From assembly GCA_903930455.1 (NCBI GenBank), contig CAIYYT010000091.1, positions 1 through 36,737 on the forward strand: DNA of 36,737 nt, written 5' to 3'. The notes beneath the pieces were generated by a model. The model was not told the DNA's origin. It searched no databases and worked only from the letters and a program-made list of their open reading frames with translations. Positions 23,601-31,941 of the stretch are shown piece by piece (position 1 is the stretch's first letter; each line of letters opens with the position of its first letter). The position numbers and the translations under genes were made by a program. The stretch is from an uncultured bacterium. Lineage in GTDB: Bacteria > Zixibacteria > MSB-5A5 > CAIYYT01.

Positions 23601-24515
23601 CTAGTGGAAGACGAGGGTTTCGGGACGGGGCTGATAGATGAAGGAAATCTTGGCGATCTTCTCCTTGGAGTCAACCGAATCAATGCGGAGCAGCGCATAG
23701 CATTTGTCCTGATCCTGCAACACAAACATCGAGTGGCTTGAGATAGGGAGAGTGTTGTCTGGCTTTCCACTCAAGGAGGTCGGAATGGTCGCTTCGAGAG
23801 ATGAATATTCAGAAAGGCTGTAAAACCTTGATTGTCGCAATACTACATTGATACGCTGCGGTGAAGCCACCCGGAGTACACCGTTTATACTCGCCAGATA
23901 GATGTCATTGTCCAGATCGTCCGTCGGCACTGACTTGATCTTGCGTAGCGAAAAACCTGATTCATTCCCCTTGAACGATTCCCTCAGCGTAAAGCTCCCT
24001 TCCGGACGGGGGATGGTTTCTGCAACATTCGATCTTGCCGACTCCATGCCATTCGGGTAGACCGTCGTTACATAGACGCGGTAAATCACACCGTTGTCAA
24101 CGCCCTCCAGCGGATAGGATTCACGTGTGATATCGGCGTCGGTGTCTCCCGGATACGGTTCAGGATTGATTCGCCGGAACCCGCCGTTTGTCGTATCTGA
24201 CGCATCCTTCTCATTCCAGAGGTAAATGTTATATCCGGAAATTATTGTGCTTTCTACGCGGTTTGTCTTCCAGGCAACATCGATCCGCTTATAGAGTGGT
24301 CGGGCGGTTAATTCCGTAGCGGCCACATAAGTTTGTACCGGCTTGGATACGACTGGAGAAGGTGGTGGCGCCGCCGGTTTGGGGCCACACGAAATCAACA
24401 CCGTGGCCGACAACAACAGCAATGCGGTTGCATCGACTCTATACAGTCGGAAACTTTGCTCCGTGCGCAATCTGGGGTTGAGTGCCTTAGCAGCTATTTG
24501 TGGTGGCCCTTTCAA
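23601..24515 (-). CDS. Lipoprotein with Fn3-like domain
   Basis: Up to 304 residues. Hydrophobic segment ALLLLSATVLISC has a lipobox (LISC, Cys at about 43), then a Pro-rich spacer (PKPAAPPPSPVVSKP). A fibronectin-III-like beta domain follows at about 60-170 (RIDVAWKTN, ISGYNIYLW, VDNGVIYRVYVTTVYPNGMES), then an unrecognised beta-rich C-terminal half. The longest reading starts at TTG 24515 in a TTGA overlap with the citrate-synthase stop, but that gives an unusually long leader before the hydrophobic core. A TTG 15 codons later would fit a signal peptide better; start uncertain. Probably anchored in the outer or inner membrane; function unknown. Confidence 0.72.
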   Translation of the reverse strand: MKGPPQIAAKALNPRLRTEQSFRLYRVDATALLLLSATVLISCGPKPAAPPPSPVVSKPVQTYVAATELTARPLYKRIDVAWKTNRVESTIISGYNIYLWNEKDASDTTNGGFRRINPEPYPGDTDADITRESYPLEGVDNGVIYRVYVTTVYPNGMESARSNVAETIPRPEGSFTLRESFKGNESGFSLRKIKSVPTDDLDNDIYLASINGVLRVASPQRINVVLRQSRFYSLSEYSSLEATIPTSLSGKPDNTLPISSHSMFVLQDQDKCYALLRIDSVDSKEKIAKISFIYQPRPETLVFH

Positions 24516-25285
24516 TCGCCGATTGTCCTGTGCGGATGGCCTGTATAGATGGTGTTGAAATTGCCCAGCTTGCGAATTGGTTTCTGCGTGGTCTTTTCCT
24601 CGTAGGCATGCGCCACCAAGCCGCCGATACGGGACAACATGAAGAACGCTTTCCCCAATTGCCAGTCAAAGCCCAAATCAGAAATCACCGCCGCAATCGC
24701 ACCGTCAATATTCAACGGAAGTTCTTTCTTGCTGTCCCCCGCGAGTATTTTCTCAATCTCTACAGCCAACATGGCATGCTTGCCGTAGAGACCCAGTCTC
24801 TTAGCCAGCTCGAGCAGCTTGATCGTCCGCGGATCGCTTGTGTGAAGCTGGTGCCCAAAGCCCGGCATCCGTTGTGCATTGGCCTTTAGGTCCCTTACCA
24901 AATTGATCGCCAGCGAATTTGGATCACCCTCTTTGCGCGCAACCTCTTGCAAGATTTTTGCTGATTGTTCGATGGCACCACCATGAACATCGCCGATCGC
25001 CATGATACCGGCAGCCACCGCCGTATTCAGCGAATTGCCCGCTGACATTACGGTGCGCGTTGCCAGCACCGAGGGAGGTGTCACGCCGTGGTCGATGCAA
25101 GAAACCAGAATGGCTCGGAACAACTCGGATGATTTGGCATCGGGGAGATTTCCTCTGAGGACGAGATAAATAGCATCACTAAAACTGATCTTCTCCATCA
25201 GTTCTGCGATATCATAGCCTTGAACAAAAATCTGATTTGCACTGACTTCGCTAATTGAGCTTTGCCAGGGAGCATCGTCGGTCAT
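24512..25285 (-). CDS. Short citrate synthase family protein, possible citryl-CoA lyase
   Basis: 257 residues, much shorter than ordinary citrate synthase (about 370-430) and matching the small citryl-CoA-lyase-like branch. The catalytic triad is present: H101 in GDVHGGA, H145 in MPGFGHQLH, D194 in LNIDGAIAAV; substrate Arg R153 lies in SDPRT. Family knowledge: the full-length enzymes make citrate from oxaloacetate and acetyl-CoA, while the short forms include citryl-CoA lyase, which cleaves citryl-CoA in the reductive TCA cycle. By-eye reading cannot decide direction. ATG is preceded by AAAGG and overlaps the upstream lipoprotein stop (ATGA). Its operon's promoter faces away from a shared Rex-type site, linking it to NADH status. 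Confidence 0.85.
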   Translation of the reverse strand: MTDDAPWQSSISEVSANQIFVQGYDIAELMEKISFSDAIYLVLRGNLPDAKSSELFRAILVSCIDHGVTPPSVLATRTVMSAGNSLNTAVAAGIMAIGDVHGGAIEQSAKILQEVARKEGDPNSLAINLVRDLKANAQRMPGFGHQLHTSDPRTIKLLELAKRLGLYGKHAMLAVEIEKILAGDSKKELPLNIDGAIAAVISDLGFDWQLGKAFFMLSRIGGLVAHAYEEKTTQKPIRKLGNFNTIYTGHPHRTIGD

Positions 25286-26109
25286 GATCGACCTTTGGCA
25301 GCCGCCGCGGCTTGTCGTTCCTGCTCCTTCCCATTGGTATGCTCTGGCAGGAATGCCTCCCAGTCCGTTGCCAGCGTTTTCGTATCTATTCCCAGCACCT
25401 GTTTGAGCGCAGTAGGGAAGTCGCTCTGGTTATGGCAAAGCTGCATAAACTTCTCGTAGCCATATTGATACATGATATAAGCGCAGAGAGACGCCGCTTC
25501 CACCGATTTCTGCATGCCCTGCTCCTTCTCGAAGGCCTTGTCATCGGTCAGAAGCTGCACGCCCAATAGCGACTTCTCTTGAATGAAGTTGTTGGTTGCG
25601 TGGTGGTAGTTGCGTCCGGAATAGTCCAGCAGAAGGGGCAGACCGTCGCGAATAAACGCAAATCGGGACGGACCACCGGGCAGCTTACCGATCAGATACT
25701 CGGCGATTTCGCCCCCGAAAACCGGACCAAAACCATAATAGAAGTGGTTGCCGAGGAAGAAGGCATCATCCCTGCCGGTGTACTTCTTCAAGGCCTCCGG
25801 GCTGTCATAGCAGTAGTATTCAATCGGTTCCAGTTGATGGAAGCACAGCGTTGTGTCAATGTTGTGATAGATTATGACTACCCGGTTCTTGAGCACAGTG
25901 GCGATTTTTTTGAGCGAGTCTGTGGGCTGATAGTAGAACGTAACGTCTGGTCCGACCTCCTTGCTCCAGACAAAATCAGCCTCGCGGATACCAGTGGTTG
26001 GATCAGGAGACTTAAGTTGCGGAGCTCCCGAACGCTCCTCCTTCTTGGAACAACTCAATACCATGATCACGCCTACGAGCAATAGGCCCAAACAGCAAAT
26101 CCTTCTCAT
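25282..26109 (-). CDS. Lipoprotein with peptidase-MA-like layout lacking HExxH
   Basis: 275 residues. The signal peptide MRRICCLGLLLVGVIMVLSC ends in a lipobox with Cys20. The remainder has the order of a peptidase-MA-like domain: a beta strand motif (VVIIYHNID), a YDSPEAL region, GGEIAEYLIG where HExxH would be, IRDGLPLLLDYSG where EGLA would be, SVEAASLCAYIMYQYGYEKF, and a closing ATDWEAFL. No zinc motif is visible. A longer reading starting at 26361 runs over the divergent promoters; ATG 26109 has GAGG 5 nt upstream and the lipoprotein signal directly after. First gene of the operon; its partner and role are unknown. Confidence 0.75.
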   Translation of the reverse strand: MRRICCLGLLLVGVIMVLSCSKKEERSGAPQLKSPDPTTGIREADFVWSKEVGPDVTFYYQPTDSLKKIATVLKNRVVIIYHNIDTTLCFHQLEPIEYYCYDSPEALKKYTGRDDAFFLGNHFYYGFGPVFGGEIAEYLIGKLPGGPSRFAFIRDGLPLLLDYSGRNYHHATNNFIQEKSLLGVQLLTDDKAFEKEQGMQKSVEAASLCAYIMYQYGYEKFMQLCHNQSDFPTALKQVLGIDTKTLATDWEAFLPEHTNGKEQERQAAAAAKGRS

Positions 26110-26142: not shown

Positions 26143-26171
26143 ATGATAATGGTGGCGGAAGAGCCTGTCAA
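26143..26171 (-). promoter_or_regulatory. Promoter for the citrate-synthase operon
   Basis: Minus strand TTGACA (26166-26171), exactly 17 bp, TATCAT (26143-26148). One mismatch in total from the sigma70 consensus. The leader to ATG 26109 is about 28 nt. Confidence 0.82.
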
Positions 26172-26180
26172 GCCGCGAAT

Positions 26181-26198
26181 TTGTGATTTTTTTCACAT
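26181..26198. promoter_or_regulatory. Rex-type operator between two divergent promoters
   Basis: TTGTGATTTTTTTCACAT fits the Rex consensus TTGTGA-N6-TCACAA at 11 of 12 arm positions. It lies 9 bp from the minus-strand -35 and 5 bp from the plus-strand -35, so one bound dimer could act on both. rex is encoded 4.6 kb away with a perfect site of the same form. A CRP/FNR-family protein recognising TGTGA-N6-TCACA is the main alternative. Confidence 0.75.
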
Positions 26199-26203
26199 TT
26201 GGC

Positions 26204-26231
26204 TTGACAAGGAAGTATGCTGGACTATCAT
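26204..26231 (+). promoter_or_regulatory. Promoter for the POR-like operon
   Basis: Plus strand TTGACA (26204-26209), 16 bp, TATCAT (26226-26231). It is about 40 bp upstream of the ATG at 26273 and nearly mirrors the divergent promoter. Confidence 0.8.
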
Positions 26232-26272
26232 GTAGATGGTATCTCTTTTGCCCAGTCGAGGAGCGAGGCGTC

Positions 26273-26830
26273 ATGCGGCAAGTGATAATCTGTGGTCGTG
26301 GTGGACAGGGGGTAATGGCTGCTGCTGAGGTGCTTGCAACAGCACTGCGGATCCAAGGCAAGTTCGTTCAGGCATTCCCGTCATTTCAACCCGAGAAAAG
26401 AGGCGCTCCGACTGCGGCCTTCGTTCGCTATGACAACGAGGAGATTTGGCTACGTTGCGAAGTTGATCGCGCCGATCTTGTGGTAGTTCTTGACCCTGCC
26501 GCAATACTGTCCATGGACATTCCTCACAGACTGTTGCCGGGGGGACTGCTAATCAGCAACGGATCAGCAACAGACCTGTCTTCGCGGACAAACACGACTT
26601 ACAGGGCCGCCACTGTCAATGCGACCCAAATTGCCATTCACCACAAGCTCGGCACACGATTGATGCCTGAGGTGAATATGCTGATGCTTGGTGCGTTTGC
26701 ACGTCTATCCGAGGATATGCCTTTGGCAGCGCTGGAAAGCTCCATTGTCAACAGTGCACCAGATAAGGGCAATGAGCTTCGGCTGGCAGTTCGGGAAGTC
26801 TACGAGCGCGTTTCCGAGGTGGTCACATGA
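26273..26830 (+). CDS. 2-oxoacid:ferredoxin oxidoreductase gamma subunit-like protein
   Basis: 185 residues of the POR/KOR gamma family, which in working enzymes helps bind CoA. The N-terminus has the family glycine motif GRGGQGV (8-14), then VQAFPSFQPEKRGAPTAAFVR, a conserved stretch, and ADLVVVLDPAAIL. I chose ATG 26273 over longer readings because GAGGAG lies about 9 nt upstream and the family begins immediately; the longer frame would run through the promoter. First gene of an operon with ATGA overlaps at every junction. The gamma subunit itself looks intact, unlike alpha and beta. Confidence 0.93.
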   Translation: MRQVIICGRGGQGVMAAAEVLATALRIQGKFVQAFPSFQPEKRGAPTAAFVRYDNEEIWLRCEVDRADLVVVLDPAAILSMDIPHRLLPGGLLISNGSATDLSSRTNTTYRAATVNATQIAIHHKLGTRLMPEVNMLMLGAFARLSEDMPLAALESSIVNSAPDKGNELRLAVREVYERVSEVVT

Positions 26831-28506
26831 GTGACAAGGACACGCATCTCCCCCCCGTAAATGCTATGCCGCCGCTGCCGATCAGCCAGGGGTGGATGGG
26901 GTGGAATCGGACAGGTGAATGGCGCTATTTCGACCCGGTACACGAGAACCATCTACCCCCCTGCAACCACGCCTGCCCGGCAGGAGAAGACATACAGAGT
27001 TTCGCTTCCTTGCTCGTACAAAGGAAGTTTCGCGAAGCCTACGATGTCATCCGCGAATCGAACCCATTGCCGTCAGTATGTGGTCGAGTCTGCAACCATC
27101 CCTGTGCTGCGAACTGCAATCGGTCCGAACTGGATGATGCCGTGTCAATCAGATGCTTGGAGCGTCTTATTGGCGATTGGGGTCTCAAGAACGTCAAGAC
27201 GCAAGCCGCTGTTATCGATCCGGACAAGGGCGAAATCGCCATCATCGGTTCCGGACCGGCTGGACTCTCGGCTGCCTGGCATCTGACCAACCTGCAATAC
27301 AAGGTCACTGTATTTGAGGCATCACCTAAGGCTGGCGGTATGCTTCGCGGAGGTATCCCGGAATTCCGACTCCCCCGAAAGACCCTTGATGCGGAAATTC
27401 ACTCGCTTGTCGACCGTGGCATTGAGTTTCGACATAATGTCAGAATTGGGCAAGACATCCCGATAGATGATCTCCAACGATTCCGGGCGATCCTGATCGC
27501 TATAGGTGCTCACAAGCCAAGGGTGTTCGATATTCCAGGCTCCGATCTGCCCGGTGTGCAACAGGGGTTGGATTTCCTCGCCGAAGTCAACTGCGGGAAA
27601 CGCGATTTCATAGAGGGGAATGTCGCGATTTTGGGAGGCAATAATACTGCGATTCAGTGTGCCCGTGCGGCGCTGCGGCTCGGAGGCAAACCGACGATTT
27701 ATTTCCGTCGCTCCGCCAACGAAGTGCCTGCGTTCGCGGACCAAATCGAGGAAGCGAGACAGGAAGGGATCGAAATAACCTCTTTGACTGCGCCGACAAC
27801 CATTCGCAAGACAGGCAACGAACTGAAACTGACACTACAGAGATTGACCCTCGGCAAGAGAGACTCCTCGGGCAAACGAATTGCCTTGTCGATACGCGGT
27901 GCGCATACGGAGGTCACGGTCTCGCGTGTGATAGTTGCGCTGGGTGAGGACCCTGACCTGACGTTTCTACCTCGCCGAATCGACCGCGAAAGCTGGGGCA
28001 TCAACACCGGCGGCACACATCAGACGAATGTCGGAAACATTTTTGCCGCCGGCGATTGCGCTGACAACCGTCGCAGCGTCGGCAGTGCCATTGGCGCCGG
28101 CAAAGCTGCCGCGCAGTCTATCGACAGGTATCTGCACGGCAAGACAGTCTTCGTTGAATCAGCCAATCGAATAGTCACGCGCTTTGCGGATCTCAATGTC
28201 GCCTACTTTCAGCGCAGTCAGGTGGTGGAGCGGAAGAAAATCCCCGATGATCGTCGCCTCACCTCATTTGCCGAGGTCAATATCGGACTGGCCGAAGCTG
28301 ATGCTCTAAGGGAAGCGGCGCGATGTCTATCCTGCGGAGTCTGCAATAGCTGCGATAACTGCTTGACTTTCTGTCCCGATCACGCCGTCACCAAGCAAAA
28401 CGGCGGCTATAAAATCAACTACGACTACTGCAAAGGTTGCGGCATCTGCATTCATGAGTGCCCGCGTGATGCAATCCACTTGCGAATCAAGCAGGTACCC
28501 AGATGA
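26827..28506 (+). CDS. GltD-like FAD/NAD(P)H oxidoreductase fused to a 2[4Fe-4S] ferredoxin
   Basis: 559 residues. N-terminal Fe-S domain like glutamate synthase small subunit, with cysteines at 46, 50, 85, 89, 93 and 97 (PCNHACPAGED, VCGRVCNHPCAANC). FAD Rossmann motif IAIIGSGPAGLSAAWHL lies near 137-153. The NAD(P)H domain has VAILGGNNTAIQCARAALRL near 275 and FRRSANEVPAF. The second FAD contact is NIFAAGDCADNRRSVGSAIG. The C-terminal ferredoxin module has CLSCGVCNSCDNCLTFCP and YCKGCGICIHECP, eight ligands for two [4Fe-4S] clusters. It replaces the usual delta subunit and would pass electrons between NAD(P)H and the alpha/beta core or ferredoxin. ATGA overlaps with both neighbours. The nucleotide site has GNN for the usual GGN; whether NADH or NADPH is used is unclear. 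Confidence 0.92.
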   Translation: MSDKDTHLPPVNAMPPLPISQGWMGWNRTGEWRYFDPVHENHLPPCNHACPAGEDIQSFASLLVQRKFREAYDVIRESNPLPSVCGRVCNHPCAANCNRSELDDAVSIRCLERLIGDWGLKNVKTQAAVIDPDKGEIAIIGSGPAGLSAAWHLTNLQYKVTVFEASPKAGGMLRGGIPEFRLPRKTLDAEIHSLVDRGIEFRHNVRIGQDIPIDDLQRFRAILIAIGAHKPRVFDIPGSDLPGVQQGLDFLAEVNCGKRDFIEGNVAILGGNNTAIQCARAALRLGGKPTIYFRRSANEVPAFADQIEEARQEGIEITSLTAPTTIRKTGNELKLTLQRLTLGKRDSSGKRIALSIRGAHTEVTVSRVIVALGEDPDLTFLPRRIDRESWGINTGGTHQTNVGNIFAAGDCADNRRSVGSAIGAGKAAAQSIDRYLHGKTVFVESANRIVTRFADLNVAYFQRSQVVERKKIPDDRRLTSFAEVNIGLAEADALREAARCLSCGVCNSCDNCLTFCPDHAVTKQNGGYKINYDYCKGCGICIHECPRDAIHLRIKQVPR

Positions 28507-29684
28507 AAGCAAAAACCGTCACCACCGGCTCCAAGATGCTGCTGAACGGGTCACAAGCGGCGGCACATGCCGTCAGGGCTGCCCGCGCCGAAGTGATCAC
28601 TACTTACCCTATCGTACCGCAATCGCTAATTGCGAAGCAGTTGCTTGAGTTCTGCTCCAAGGGAGAGCTGCAGGCGCGTTACGTCAGCGTGGAATCGGCG
28701 CATTCGGCGTTGTCGACTTTGATCGGCGCCTCGGCAACCGGTGCGAGGACCTTCACCGCCACCTCTTCACAGGGACTGGCGTTGATGCACGAGATGTTGC
28801 ATTGGGCGGTGGGTGATCGGTTGCCGATCGTGATTGCCAATGTCAATCGCGCTTTGGGCGCCCCCTGGTCGATCTGGGTCGATCACAATGACAGCCTTTC
28901 ACAGCGTGACACCGGTTGGATTCAGTTCTATGTCTCCTCCTGCCAGGAAGTCTTCGACACAATTCTACAGGCGTACAGGCTTGGCGAGATCGTGCAACTG
29001 CCGGTAATGGTAAATTTGGACGGCTTCTACCTTTCACATACGATCGAACCGACCATTCTGCCCGAACTAGCCGAAGTTGATGCCTTTCTGCCGCCGTATC
29101 AGACCGAATGGCGACTGGACCCGCAGAAGCCGCGTTCTATTGGCAATCTGACCTCTCCCGACTACTACCTCGAATTCCGATACAAGATCCAAGAGGCTAT
29201 GGACGCAGCCAAAGCTGTGACCAATGACGTCTATCAAGAATTCGAGTCACACTTCGGACGGCACTACGGTAGTCTGGATTGCTATGAACTTGAAGATGCG
29301 AAAACCGTTTTCATCACCTATGCGACAATGGCTCAGACCGTCAAACACGCAGTGCGGGAGATGCGCCGTGAAGGGAAAAAAGTGGGACTCATTCGCATCA
29401 GGATGTTTCGACCATTCCCGGCGGAAAATCTTCGCCAACTCGTCAGATCGAGCTGTCGTTACATCGTTCTTGATCGCAACGTCAGCTTTGGCGCCGGCGG
29501 CATTTTCGGTCAGGAAATCAGAGCGGCGCTTCATTCACAAGCGTTAGACTCCGGCGTCGTCAGCATCACTCTCGGTTTGGGCGGTCGCGATGTTTCGCCT
29601 GCCATGATCAAGGAAATCGCCGCCAAGTACTCGGAAGGAGAAGTCTTTGCTGGTGACCACTATTGGGAAGGAGTACGGTCATGA
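28503..29684 (+). CDS. 2-oxoacid:ferredoxin oxidoreductase alpha subunit-like protein with altered TPP site
   Basis: 393 residues of the PorA family (domains I and II), normally contributing the pyrimidine side of thiamine pyrophosphate. Conservation is strong: ASATGARTFTATSSQGLALM, VNRALGAPWSIWVDHNDS, RDTGWIQFY, LPVMVNLDGFYLSHTIEP, and in domain II RIRMFRPFPAENL. But the catalytic VESEHS is VESAHS (Glu to Ala66), and the substrate loop YPITP is YPIVP (Val38). In characterised enzymes these residues activate TPP N1' and contact the substrate carboxylate. The frame is intact and starts in an ATGA overlap, so this is not a decayed gene. Activity as a classical 2-oxoacid oxidoreductase is doubtful. 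Confidence 0.92.
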   Translation: MKAKTVTTGSKMLLNGSQAAAHAVRAARAEVITTYPIVPQSLIAKQLLEFCSKGELQARYVSVESAHSALSTLIGASATGARTFTATSSQGLALMHEMLHWAVGDRLPIVIANVNRALGAPWSIWVDHNDSLSQRDTGWIQFYVSSCQEVFDTILQAYRLGEIVQLPVMVNLDGFYLSHTIEPTILPELAEVDAFLPPYQTEWRLDPQKPRSIGNLTSPDYYLEFRYKIQEAMDAAKAVTNDVYQEFESHFGRHYGSLDCYELEDAKTVFITYATMAQTVKHAVREMRREGKKVGLIRIRMFRPFPAENLRQLVRSSCRYIVLDRNVSFGAGGIFGQEIRAALHSQALDSGVVSITLGLGGRDVSPAMIKEIAAKYSEGEVFAGDHYWEGVRS

Positions 29685-30613
29685 TGCTTCCGCAGAATTC
29701 CGATCGCGCACAGGAATCGGGTCATCTTGGCTGCCCCGGCTGCGGTGAAGCCCTGGGATTGCGACTGGTGTTGGAGATTATCGGCAGCAACGCGATTATG
29801 GTTGTGCCGGCCTGTTGCGCTTCCTATGTCGACGGCATCTGGCCGAGTTCCGCGGCTCGGATACCGATCTTGCATGTTGCTATGGGAACAACAGCAGCAG
29901 TGGCAGCGGGGATTCGCGCAGCACTCGAGGTCAAGGGGCTGAATGATACGCACGTGCTCGCCTGGGCTGGTGGCAGCGGCGCTTTCGACTCCGGCCTGCA
30001 GGCGATATCCTCTGCGGCCGAAAGAAACGAAGACATACTCTATATCTGTTACAACAATGAGTCGTACATCGACATGGACATTCACTACTTTACCAGCGGT
30101 AGCAACCGGAGAGGCGGTGGTGCTCACGCCGATCATAGGCGCCAGCGAACACAGAAGAACATCATCGAAATCATGGCGGCGCATCATATCCCTTACTGCG
30201 CAACCGCCTGCGTGGCCTACCCAGACGATTTGGCCGACAAAGTGAAGAAGGCGTTGTCGATACCGGGCTTCAAGTTTATGCATCTGCTTTCTCCGTGCCC
30301 GACTCATTGGGAAATACCCTCGGAACTGTCGATTGAATTGACCCGCGCCGCGGTGGAGACACGAATTTTCCCGTTGTATGAGGTAGAAGATGGCACGAAG
30401 TACGCGATTAGTGTTCTGCCGGGGACCTTTGTGCCAGTCTCCAGGTTCCTCTCACGGCAAGGACGATTTGCCAATTTGAGCGCTGAGGCGATACGGCAGA
30501 TCCAGAATCGAGTGGAATCTCAATGGAGACAACTCCAACGCAGAATTGAACTATCACGTGGCGGCGTCTCTGGGCAAGTAAAAGCGAAACCGGAGAAACA
30601 GACTGCTCCTTAA
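29681..30613 (+). CDS. 2-oxoacid:ferredoxin oxidoreductase beta subunit-like protein with altered TPP/Mg motif
   Basis: 310 residues of the PorB family, normally holding the TPP diphosphate, Mg and a [4Fe-4S] cluster. GCPGCGEALGLR (17-28) keeps two cluster-type cysteines, and later parts are well conserved (IMAAHHIPYCATACVAYPDD, HLLSPCPTHWE, AVETRIFPLYEVEDGTKYAI). The canonical AGDGGTFDIG reads AGGSGAFDSG (96-105), so the Mg-binding Asp is gone. The following MNTGIQRSSATP-type loop is replaced by IDMDIHYFTSG and an Arg/Gly/His-rich stretch (142-155). The other two frames across this loop do not restore the motif, so a frameshift is unlikely. I chose ATG 29681 (ATGA overlap, AGGAG upstream) rather than TTG 29663. 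Confidence 0.92.
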   Translation: MMLPQNSDRAQESGHLGCPGCGEALGLRLVLEIIGSNAIMVVPACCASYVDGIWPSSAARIPILHVAMGTTAAVAAGIRAALEVKGLNDTHVLAWAGGSGAFDSGLQAISSAAERNEDILYICYNNESYIDMDIHYFTSGSNRRGGGAHADHRRQRTQKNIIEIMAAHHIPYCATACVAYPDDLADKVKKALSIPGFKFMHLLSPCPTHWEIPSELSIELTRAAVETRIFPLYEVEDGTKYAISVLPGTFVPVSRFLSRQGRFANLSAEAIRQIQNRVESQWRQLQRRIELSRGGVSGQVKAKPEKQTAP

Positions 30614-30741
30614 CTCATGGAGTTTGGCAATCGTTTGCGCCGTTGGCTTCTTGAGTTGATGATCAGACAATTGCAAAACAGAGAGCGCCTCTGTCCGTAT
30701 CTATGAAAATAGCGCTTGACATCGGTAAATCAGCCCTTTTT

Positions 30742-30759
30742 TTGTGAAAGGTTTCACAA
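30742..30759. promoter_or_regulatory. Perfect Rex operator upstream of rex
   Basis: TTGTGAAAGGTTTCACAA: inverted 8-bp arms TTGTGAAA/TTTCACAA, a perfect match to the Rex consensus TTGTGA-N6-TCACAA. It lies 41 bp before the rex ATG and directly downstream of a TTGACA (30716-30721) that could be the -35 box; the -10 would then fall in the T-rich stretch at the operator edge, a repressing position. Indicates autoregulation. Confidence 0.88.
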
Positions 30760-30800: not shown

Positions 30801-31457
30801 ATGAGAGATCGCAGGATTTCCGAGTCGACGATTCATCGTCTATCCCATTACTATCGTGCTCTTACCGCCCTTGAACGTGAGCACTTCGACACAGTCTCCT
30901 CAAGGGAACTCGCCAATCGCGAGGAACTGACTCCTGCTCAAGTGCGCAAGGATCTGTCGTTCTTCGGCTCATTTGGCACTCGCGGGCTGGGCTATCCCGT
31001 GAAAGAGCTGAAAGAGAAGATCGCTCGCATCCTTGGCATAGACCGAGTCTGGAACGTGGCATTGATCGGAGTCGGAAACATCGGCTCAGCACTGGTGTCT
31101 TACAAGGAATTTGCGCGCCAGGGTTTCAACATCAAGCTGCTGTTTGATAGCGATCAGCGCAAGATTGGTTCCAATCATAAGGGTATCACTGTGTTGGGCA
31201 TGGATGATCTTGAAAGGCAGTTGAACGAGAACAAGATCGAACTGGTGATTCTAGCAGTGCCGGCTTCCTCAGCGCAAGTTATTGTCGATCACGTTGTTAA
31301 TTGCGGAATCAAGGCAATCCTCAATTTTGCGCCGATCAAACTGGCGGTGCCTGATGATGTGTTTCTTCGTACTGAGAATATGGCGATGGAACTGGAATAC
31401 CTTTCATTTTCGCTGGTGAACAATCTGCCGCGCAGAAGCGATCGTAAAAAGACTTGA
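30801..31457 (+). CDS. rex: Redox-sensing transcriptional repressor Rex
   Basis: 218-residue Rex. The N-terminal winged-helix region (SRELANREELTPAQVRKDLS, then FFGSFGTRGLGY) binds DNA. The Rossmann domain with VALIGVGNIGSALVSY binds NADH/NAD+, and the C-terminal helix (MELEYLSFSLVNNL) is the domain-swapped dimer element. Rex represses when NAD+ is high relative to NADH and releases DNA when NADH rises. The length is typical and ATG is preceded by AAGGAA. It has its own upstream operator and lies beside the POR-like operon whose promoter region carries a matching site. Confidence 0.97.
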   Translation: MRDRRISESTIHRLSHYYRALTALEREHFDTVSSRELANREELTPAQVRKDLSFFGSFGTRGLGYPVKELKEKIARILGIDRVWNVALIGVGNIGSALVSYKEFARQGFNIKLLFDSDQRKIGSNHKGITVLGMDDLERQLNENKIELVILAVPASSAQVIVDHVVNCGIKAILNFAPIKLAVPDDVFLRTENMAMELEYLSFSLVNNLPRRSDRKKT

Positions 31458-31497: not shown

Positions 31498-31941
31498 ATG
31501 CAGGAGCGTCCGTCTAAAATGTTCGTGAAATTCGCTCGGATCGTAGCGGTAACGCTGATTGTGCTTCTTGTTGCCACAACTGCTACTCGTGCGTTCTTCT
31601 TTGCCAATGTCTGTCTGGTTACCGGCACAATCCAGTACCACGGCCAATCGGCAGAGAAGGGGCTGCCCATTGTTGCGTTTATCGGCGAGGACAAAGTGTC
31701 CGAGTCGCAAACCCGTGACAATGGAGCCTTTGAATTGCGCATCCCGGAATACGATTCTTCGAAGCCTGACATAAAGGGCTACCGCTCCCCCAACGACGTC
31801 ATCCAGGTCAAGTTGGATGGCAAGACCGCCAGGCCCACTTTCACGCCGAGCAATGAAAACCTCAAAGTTGACTTGCGAGTTGAGTCAACGCTTGATGTTA
31901 AGCTGTCGACTTGGGGCAAGATTAAGGCTCTTTTCAAGTAG
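31498..31941 (+). CDS. Small exported or membrane-anchored protein, unknown
   Basis: 147 residues. Hydrophobic segment about 10-33 (VKFARIVAVTLIVLLVATTA) acts as a signal peptide or anchor. The rest resembles a carboxypeptidase-regulatory-like beta sandwich: VTGTIQYHGQSAEKGLPIVAF, then DNGAFELRIPEYD. The match is layout only and I would not name a family. ATG is preceded by GGGAGGG. It follows rex by 40 bp with no terminator between, so it is probably co-transcribed and Rex-controlled. Confidence 0.7.
   Translation: MQERPSKMFVKFARIVAVTLIVLLVATTATRAFFFANVCLVTGTIQYHGQSAEKGLPIVAFIGEDKVSESQTRDNGAFELRIPEYDSSKPDIKGYRSPNDVIQVKLDGKTARPTFTPSNENLKVDLRVESTLDVKLSTWGKIKALFK

Follow-up and report, generated by a model that had tools for sequence, protein, structure and literature searches.

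The DNA between two divergently transcribed operons of an uncultured bacterium carries a palindrome set between two opposed promoters, which raises the question of which regulator reads this site and whether both operons answer to it. The window analyzed here, i.e., the whole stretch of 36,737 nucleotides, is the entire contig C91 of a 3.77-Mb genome (G000) of the candidate phylum Zixibacteria, and among named relatives the closest is a Candidatus Zixiibacteriota MAG from the sediment of Lake Pavin. Genome-wide statements on G000 are based on pattern searches and individual stretches of sequence, and its list of TTGTGAN6TCACAA-type sites is complete for up to one mismatch. The phylum comparison set includes 130 genomes, among them the genus-mate G001, G002 and G003, which also belong to the family of the window (f1), and G097 of family f10. 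All start sites are predictions throughout.

A candidate operator between two divergent promoters

An earlier note on this DNA had described TTGACA-17-TATCAT on the minus strand, a central palindrome, and TTGACA-16-TATCAT on the plus strand. All of these were confirmed by direct reading of 26143-26231, where the following elements are found:

26143-26148, minus strand: -10 box TATCAT of the lipoprotein/citryl-CoA lyase operon, 17-bp spacer (read directly)
26166-26171, minus strand: -35 box TTGACA of the lipoprotein/citryl-CoA lyase operon (kept in G001 and G097)
26181-26198, no strand assigned: candidate Rex-type operator TTGTGATTTTTTTCACAT, common to both promoters (sequence, conservation, matrix)
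26204-26209, plus strand: -35 box TTGACA of the POR-like operon (kept in G001, TTGACT in G097)
26226-26231, plus strand: -10 box TATCAT of the POR-like operon, 16-bp spacer (read directly)

Both promoters are of the sigma-70 type with 11/12 matches, and they are the sole 11/12 matches in 7 kb. The minus-strand -35 box is separated from the operator by 9 bp and the operator from the plus-strand -35 box by 5 bp. The operator is thus upstream of both -35 boxes, centred at about -48.5 and -53.5 from the predicted starts near 26238 and 26136, and it has A/T-rich surroundings and an A-tract at its centre. Compared with the Rex consensus TTGTGAAN4TTCACAA, it has two mismatches at the 14 specified positions (7 and 18). 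It contains the exact core TGTGAN6TCACA, and since position 7 is T where the Rex consensus has A, the window site taken alone also fits the CRP consensus, which has this same core.

Across all 3.77 Mb of G000, the pattern TTGTGAN6TCACAT has one exact copy, the divergon site, and TTGTGAN6TCACAA has three; two of these four exact sites flank the POR-like operon. When up to two mismatches are allowed, the pattern is found 226 times in G000 versus 87 times for the reversed control. A scoring matrix made from 21 rex-promoter sites of other genera, with none from the window's own genus, gives the window site 23.9 bits in the orientation toward the POR-like operon, a score reached at 0 positions in 4 Mb of Markov-random sequence. 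The operator at 26181-26198 is not a chance occurrence.

The genes on either side

The two operons contain the following genes:

23601-24515, minus strand: lipoprotein, third gene of the minus-strand operon (weak fn3 similarity; kept in G001, G002, G003 and G097)
24512-25285, minus strand: citryl-CoA lyase of the PRK06224 type, a short citrate-synthase-like protein (NF004869, 288 bits, cut-off 212)
25282-26109, minus strand: lipoprotein, first gene of the minus-strand operon (weak Peptidase_MA_2 similarity, 24.6 bits, below the cut-off of 32.4)
26273-26830, plus strand: 2-oxoacid oxidoreductase gamma subunit, PorC-like (TIGR02175, above cut-off)
26827-28506, plus strand: GltD-like NAD(P)/FAD oxidoreductase fused to a PorD-like 2x[4Fe-4S] ferredoxin (NF009410, 518.6 bits, cut-off 516)
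28503-29684, plus strand: 2-oxoacid oxidoreductase alpha subunit, PorA-like (profile matches)
29663-30613, plus strand: 2-oxoacid oxidoreductase beta subunit, PorB-like (profile matches)

The minus-strand operon does carry citryl-CoA lyase, as the earlier note held, but its first gene encodes a lipoprotein and citryl-CoA lyase is second. This Peptidase-MA-like lipoprotein is conserved upstream of citryl-CoA lyase across the phylum. In many phylum genomes, citryl-CoA lyase is found between two lipoprotein genes (window 23601-26109, loci L103-L132), and the Peptidase-MA-like and fn3-like lipoproteins are odd neighbours for a cytosolic citryl-CoA lyase.

On the plus strand, the GltD-like/PorD-like fusion suggests an NAD(P)-linked 2-oxoacid oxidoreductase, the cofactor of which may be the very signal that Rex senses. 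A search of the genome contigs for the fusion protein gave matches only in the genus-mate and one distant homologue. A known enzyme of similar build is the NADH-linked phenylglyoxylate dehydrogenase (PadEFGHI), which likewise joins a pyridine-nucleotide-linked flavoprotein subunit to a 2-oxoacid oxidoreductase core. However, while the NCBIfam Pad models score on the window operon, they do so below cut-off, and the operon scores nearer to the pyruvate/2-ketoisovalerate models.

The rex gene and its box

A second, perfect Rex box is present in the window, in addition to what had been described earlier, and is found upstream of a rex gene:

30716-30721, plus strand: -35 box TTGACA of rex (the -10 box is weak in the window and clear in relatives)
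30742-30759, no strand assigned: perfect Rex box TTGTGAAAGGTTTCACAA before rex (pattern search)
30801-31457, plus strand: rex, redox-sensing repressor (NF003995, 258 bits, cut-off 126)

The gene is the only rex in G000 and lies directly 3' of the PorB-like gene, 4.6 kb downstream of the operator. Its protein contains the DNA-binding motif QVRKDLS and the NAD-binding motif GVGNIG, matches both the winged helix PF06971 (63.5 bits) and the Rossmann NAD-binding domain PF02629 (74.9 bits), and aligns over nearly its full length with the solved Rex chains 3wg9, 5zz5 and 3ikv. A small predicted secreted protein with no Pfam match is encoded 3' of rex in three genomes of the family (window 31498-31941; L051:4335-4778; L053:3259-3678).

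Within the phylum, rex is found in 117/130 genomes, and a close upstream box is present at 29 of the 30 rex loci that were read. As 25 of these 29 boxes end in CACAT like the window site, the final T of the latter, a mismatch by the textbook, is the usual form in this phylum. The rex box of G040, TTGTGATTCATTTCACAT, differs from the window operator at two spacer positions and also has T at position 7. The boxes of rex genes are located a few bp downstream of the -10 box, e.g., TTGACA-17-TATAAT-N3-TTGTGA in L087. This is the position of a plain road-block, and Rex probably blocks the start site there. Compared with these genes, the position of the divergon operator just upstream of both -35 boxes is indeed as unusual for a simple repressor as the earlier note had remarked.

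Conservation in the genus and in a second family

Conservation of the palindrome had been proposed as a check of the Rex reading, and it holds within the genus, in a second family with the same spacing, and in a third large family (f5), where both the oxidoreductase partner and the right arm are different. In the genus-mate G001, a single spacer base of the operator differs and each of the four hexamers is unchanged. Only 1/42 operator and hexamer columns changed between G000 and G001, compared with 24/121 of the remaining intergenic columns (Fisher p = 0.003); for the 18 operator columns taken alone, the difference is not significant (1/18 changed, p = 0.12).

G097, which belongs to another family of the same class, has the same seven genes in the same arrangement, and its fusion protein is 54% identical. 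Between its two operons stands TGTCAA-9-TAGTGACAAATTTCACAT-5-TTGACT-16-TATATT, the spacer of the opposite promoter being 17 bp, and the spacings of 9, 5, 17 and 16 bp are all identical to those in the window. The score level of this site corresponds to 4.5 occurrences per random Mb, and a chance match at exactly this place is therefore very unlikely. No Rex site was found within 1.5 kb of the fusion-protein homologues with 40-45% identity in G043-G048, G112, G116, G117, G124 and G125.

The site follows the oxidoreductase partner

Citryl-CoA lyase is present in 91/130 genomes, usually behind the same lipoprotein. We scored the promoter regions of 62 citryl-CoA lyase loci, 61 of them with the partner status called. 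A Rex-like 18-mer was found at 35/37 loci facing a 2-oxoacid oxidoreductase operon (porC or P-loop/VorB) and at 0/24 others, where the partner calls come from tblastn with three probes and could miss other oxidoreductase types beside the 24 negative loci. The association between partner and 18-mer has a Fisher p of 5e-15, in which related genomes are not independent, and 21/23 partner genera have the 18-mer. In G048 the 18-mer is present, and its short contig shows no partner. In family f1, partner and site occur together in G000 and G001 and are both missing from G002 and G003.

The partner operon in family f5 includes a P-loop ATPase gene and, after it, one for a VorB-type alpha subunit (NF005507, >520 bits, cut-off 399). 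Here the 18-mer is the near-invariant TTGTGAAAAAAATAACGA, mostly arranged as GTCAA-6-[18]-10/11-TTGAC, where 17 bp separate TTGAC from a TATATT-like -10 box, and conservation drops sharply at both edges of the 18-mer. The right arm at the f5 divergon is TAACGA versus TCACAT at f5 rex genes, and because of this difference a second factor is possible there. Tentatively, TTGTGAAAAAAATAACGA would represent a second, heteromeric class of Rex operator at this module.

Rex and the alternatives

The reading of the palindrome as a Rex-type operator is supported by a rex gene behind a perfect box in the window, by the matching rex boxes of the phylum, and by conservation. Rex is a repressor whose DNA binding is strengthened by NAD+ and weakened by NADH, and its sites in S. 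aureus are found within promoters or a few bp upstream or downstream of them (PMC2883068). In Caldicellulosiruptor bescii, Rex controls a pyruvate:ferredoxin/2-oxoacid:ferredoxin oxidoreductase operon (PMC6391272). We consider it quite likely that 26181-26198 is a Rex operator, where NAD+-bound Rex would repress both operons and NADH would relieve the repression. The two operons are probably controlled together by the redox state of the cell. At a low NADH/NAD+ ratio, Rex with NAD+ would bind between the -35 boxes and hold both the promoter of the 2-oxoacid oxidoreductase operon and that of the lipoprotein/citryl-CoA lyase operon low. When NADH rises, Rex would leave and both operons would be expressed, and rex, behind its own perfect box, would be relieved likewise as part of the same loop. 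Because the operator is upstream of both -35 boxes in A/T-rich DNA, Rex might cover a common upstream element for the alpha subunits of RNA polymerase rather than block the start sites, which, given Rex, has about an even chance of being correct. Each step of this scheme (that Rex binds, that it responds to NADH, that it represses both sides, and that it does so through the upstream element) is a prediction from sequence.

The exact TGTGAN6TCACA core, which the window site shares with proteobacterial CRP sites, could alternatively be bound by a CRP/FNR-family protein that activates one or both promoters. G000 encodes one Crp-type HTH, a fuller homologue of which is found in G001, and S. aureus ArcR, a member of the Crp/Fnr family, binds a Crp-like motif at some Rex target genes (PMC2883068). 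However, the Crp-type proteins of G000 and G001 have an FNR-like ExxSR helix (NETLSRNLRK/NETVSRNLRK), and the G000 gene is a fragment cut by the contig end. Such a helix is expected to read TTGA-type and not GTGA half sites. The earlier note had named binding by a CRP/FNR-family protein as what would overturn the Rex reading, and a CRP-type regulator (cNMP domain plus RExxxR helix) was sought in G000 and not found, the only candidate being the ExxSR fragment. This protein search covered G000, G001 and G097, i.e., genomes outside f5, and a PF00325 search of G000 and G097 gave no match. The other two cyclic-nucleotide-domain proteins are without such an HTH, one being a sensor kinase and the other belonging to a hydrogenase-type operon. 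Additionally, the same motif recurs before rex at 29/30 loci, and its centres in the window, about -48 and -53 from the predicted starts, are unsuited to activation, as class I and class II CRP sites are centred near -61.5 or -41.5. Collectively, this makes a CRP/FNR-family activator quite improbable. Rex itself might activate rather than repress here, in line with a position upstream of both promoters that differs from that at rex genes, but near-consensus promoters with 11/12 matches hardly require an activator. Rex is moreover described as a repressor, and in S. aureus its sites are also found a few bp upstream of promoters (PMC2883068); we regard activation by Rex as improbable. If no factor binds at all, the central A-tract and the A/T-rich DNA between the two promoters could serve as a common UP element for RNA polymerase. 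A UP element has no need of GTGA/TCAC dyad cores or sharp 18-bp edges, and the same class of 18-mer is found downstream of the -10 box at rex. A UP element alone was rejected since conservation ends at the edges of the 18-mer, and it is very improbable.

A different question is whether Rex would control both sides. As the site goes with the oxidoreductase operon, any control of the lyase side might be incidental, with Rex acting on the oxidoreductase operon only and the citryl-CoA lyase operon merely starting alongside. The absence of the site from all 24 citryl-CoA lyase loci called as lacking a partner, including those of G002 and G003, fits such one-sided control, as does the orientation of the site, whose CACAT is turned toward the oxidoreductase in f1 and f10, just as the CACAT of rex boxes is turned toward rex. 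On the other hand, the -35 and -10 boxes on the lyase side are kept at a near-fixed distance from the operator (9 bp in f1 and f10, 10-11 bp in f5), TTGAC with a 17-bp spacer is maintained on this side across many genera, and the window operator is no more than 9 bp from either -35 box. Control of the POR side only is further weakened by f5, where nearly the same geometry is found with a VorB partner. We rate one-sided control as rather unlikely, and joint repression of both operons by Rex is the reading we prefer.

Other Rex-like sites

Other sites of this class in G000 have typical redox genes as neighbours, which also fits Rex, namely those for NADH dehydrogenase chain 3, ATP synthase, hydroxyacyl-CoA, alcohol and aldehyde dehydrogenases, and malic enzyme. 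The malic enzyme gene has a Rex-like site in G000 and TTGTGAAAAAAATAACTA in G024 and G027. Further variant sites in relatives precede the genes for glutamate dehydrogenase, glutamyl-tRNA reductase (hemA), multihaem cytochromes and heme A synthase (ctaA). Such redox and heme genes are the kind of genes that Rex controls elsewhere. Their company, and the occurrence of both forms at the malic enzyme gene and, as described below, at the Rrf2 gene, speaks for the variant as a possible Rex operator. Two perfect boxes are found on other contigs of G000:

G000:C172:5379-5396 (L021:5379-5396): perfect Rex box TTGTGAAATCGTTCACAA, with cobO/btuR on one side and an Rrf2-family gene on the other
G000:C50:20640-20657 (L020:5641-5658): perfect Rex box that falls in an HdrC-like coding frame (3' part), with an HdrB-like gene about 120 bp further on

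Rex may control the Rrf2-family regulator gene at C172, as in G014 the Rrf2 gene is preceded by TTGTGAAAAAAATAACGA and a CobO-like frame (identified by eye) is found opposite. The C50 box may be an internal operator or a chance occurrence. Two identical Rex-like sites, TTGTCAACGAATTCACAA, occur 859 bp apart at L031:3022 and L031:3881 (G000:C139:5421 and 6280), one of them before a zinc alcohol dehydrogenase gene. Another motif class, TTGTGAAANNNATAAC(A/G)A, recurs across the phylum ahead of redox and heme genes (e.g., loci L194-L222) and has far more copies than the reversed control.

Comparison with known systems and implications

The window and phylum sites resemble known Rex operators (ROP, TTGTGAAN4TTCACAA) in the 18-bp palindrome, the TTGTGA/TCACA arms, and a rex gene behind its own box; known targets include genes for respiration, fermentation, hydrogenase and 2-oxoacid oxidoreductases (PMC2883068, PMC6391272). 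They differ in that the rex-gene box of this phylum usually ends in CACAT and, for the divergon site, in the T at position 7 and the location upstream of two opposed -35 boxes. The closest counterpart of the plus-strand operon among the systems compared is the pyruvate/2-ketoisovalerate:ferredoxin oxidoreductase of C. bescii (Athe_0874), also a four-gene operon behind a Rex site (PMC6391272). In contrast to the latter, the window operon contains a GltD-like/PorD fusion subunit, has rex itself behind it, and faces a citryl-CoA lyase operon across one operator. In the literature that we searched, Zixibacteria and Rex are not named together in any paper, and no paper connects citryl-CoA lyase to a Rex regulon.

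A wider reading, which is possible if somewhat doubtful, is that Zixibacteria have a module in which a single Rex operator between opposed -35 boxes couples citryl-CoA lyase to whichever 2-oxoacid oxidoreductase is opposite, be it an NAD-linked POR or a VorB type. Such a module would be switched on at excess NADH and control a reductive-TCA-like segment, with Rex masking the upstream element for two polymerases and TTGTGAAAAAAATAACGA as the second operator class. The near-equal spacing with two different partner operons offers a simple test of how a repressor can silence divergent promoters from upstream of their -35 boxes. The operator ties citryl-CoA lyase to 2-oxoacid oxidoreductases, and if these enzymes run reductively, the module would be an electron sink of the reductive-TCA type. 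A conserved and precisely spaced operator indicates which reactions this uncultured phylum would switch with NADH/NAD+.
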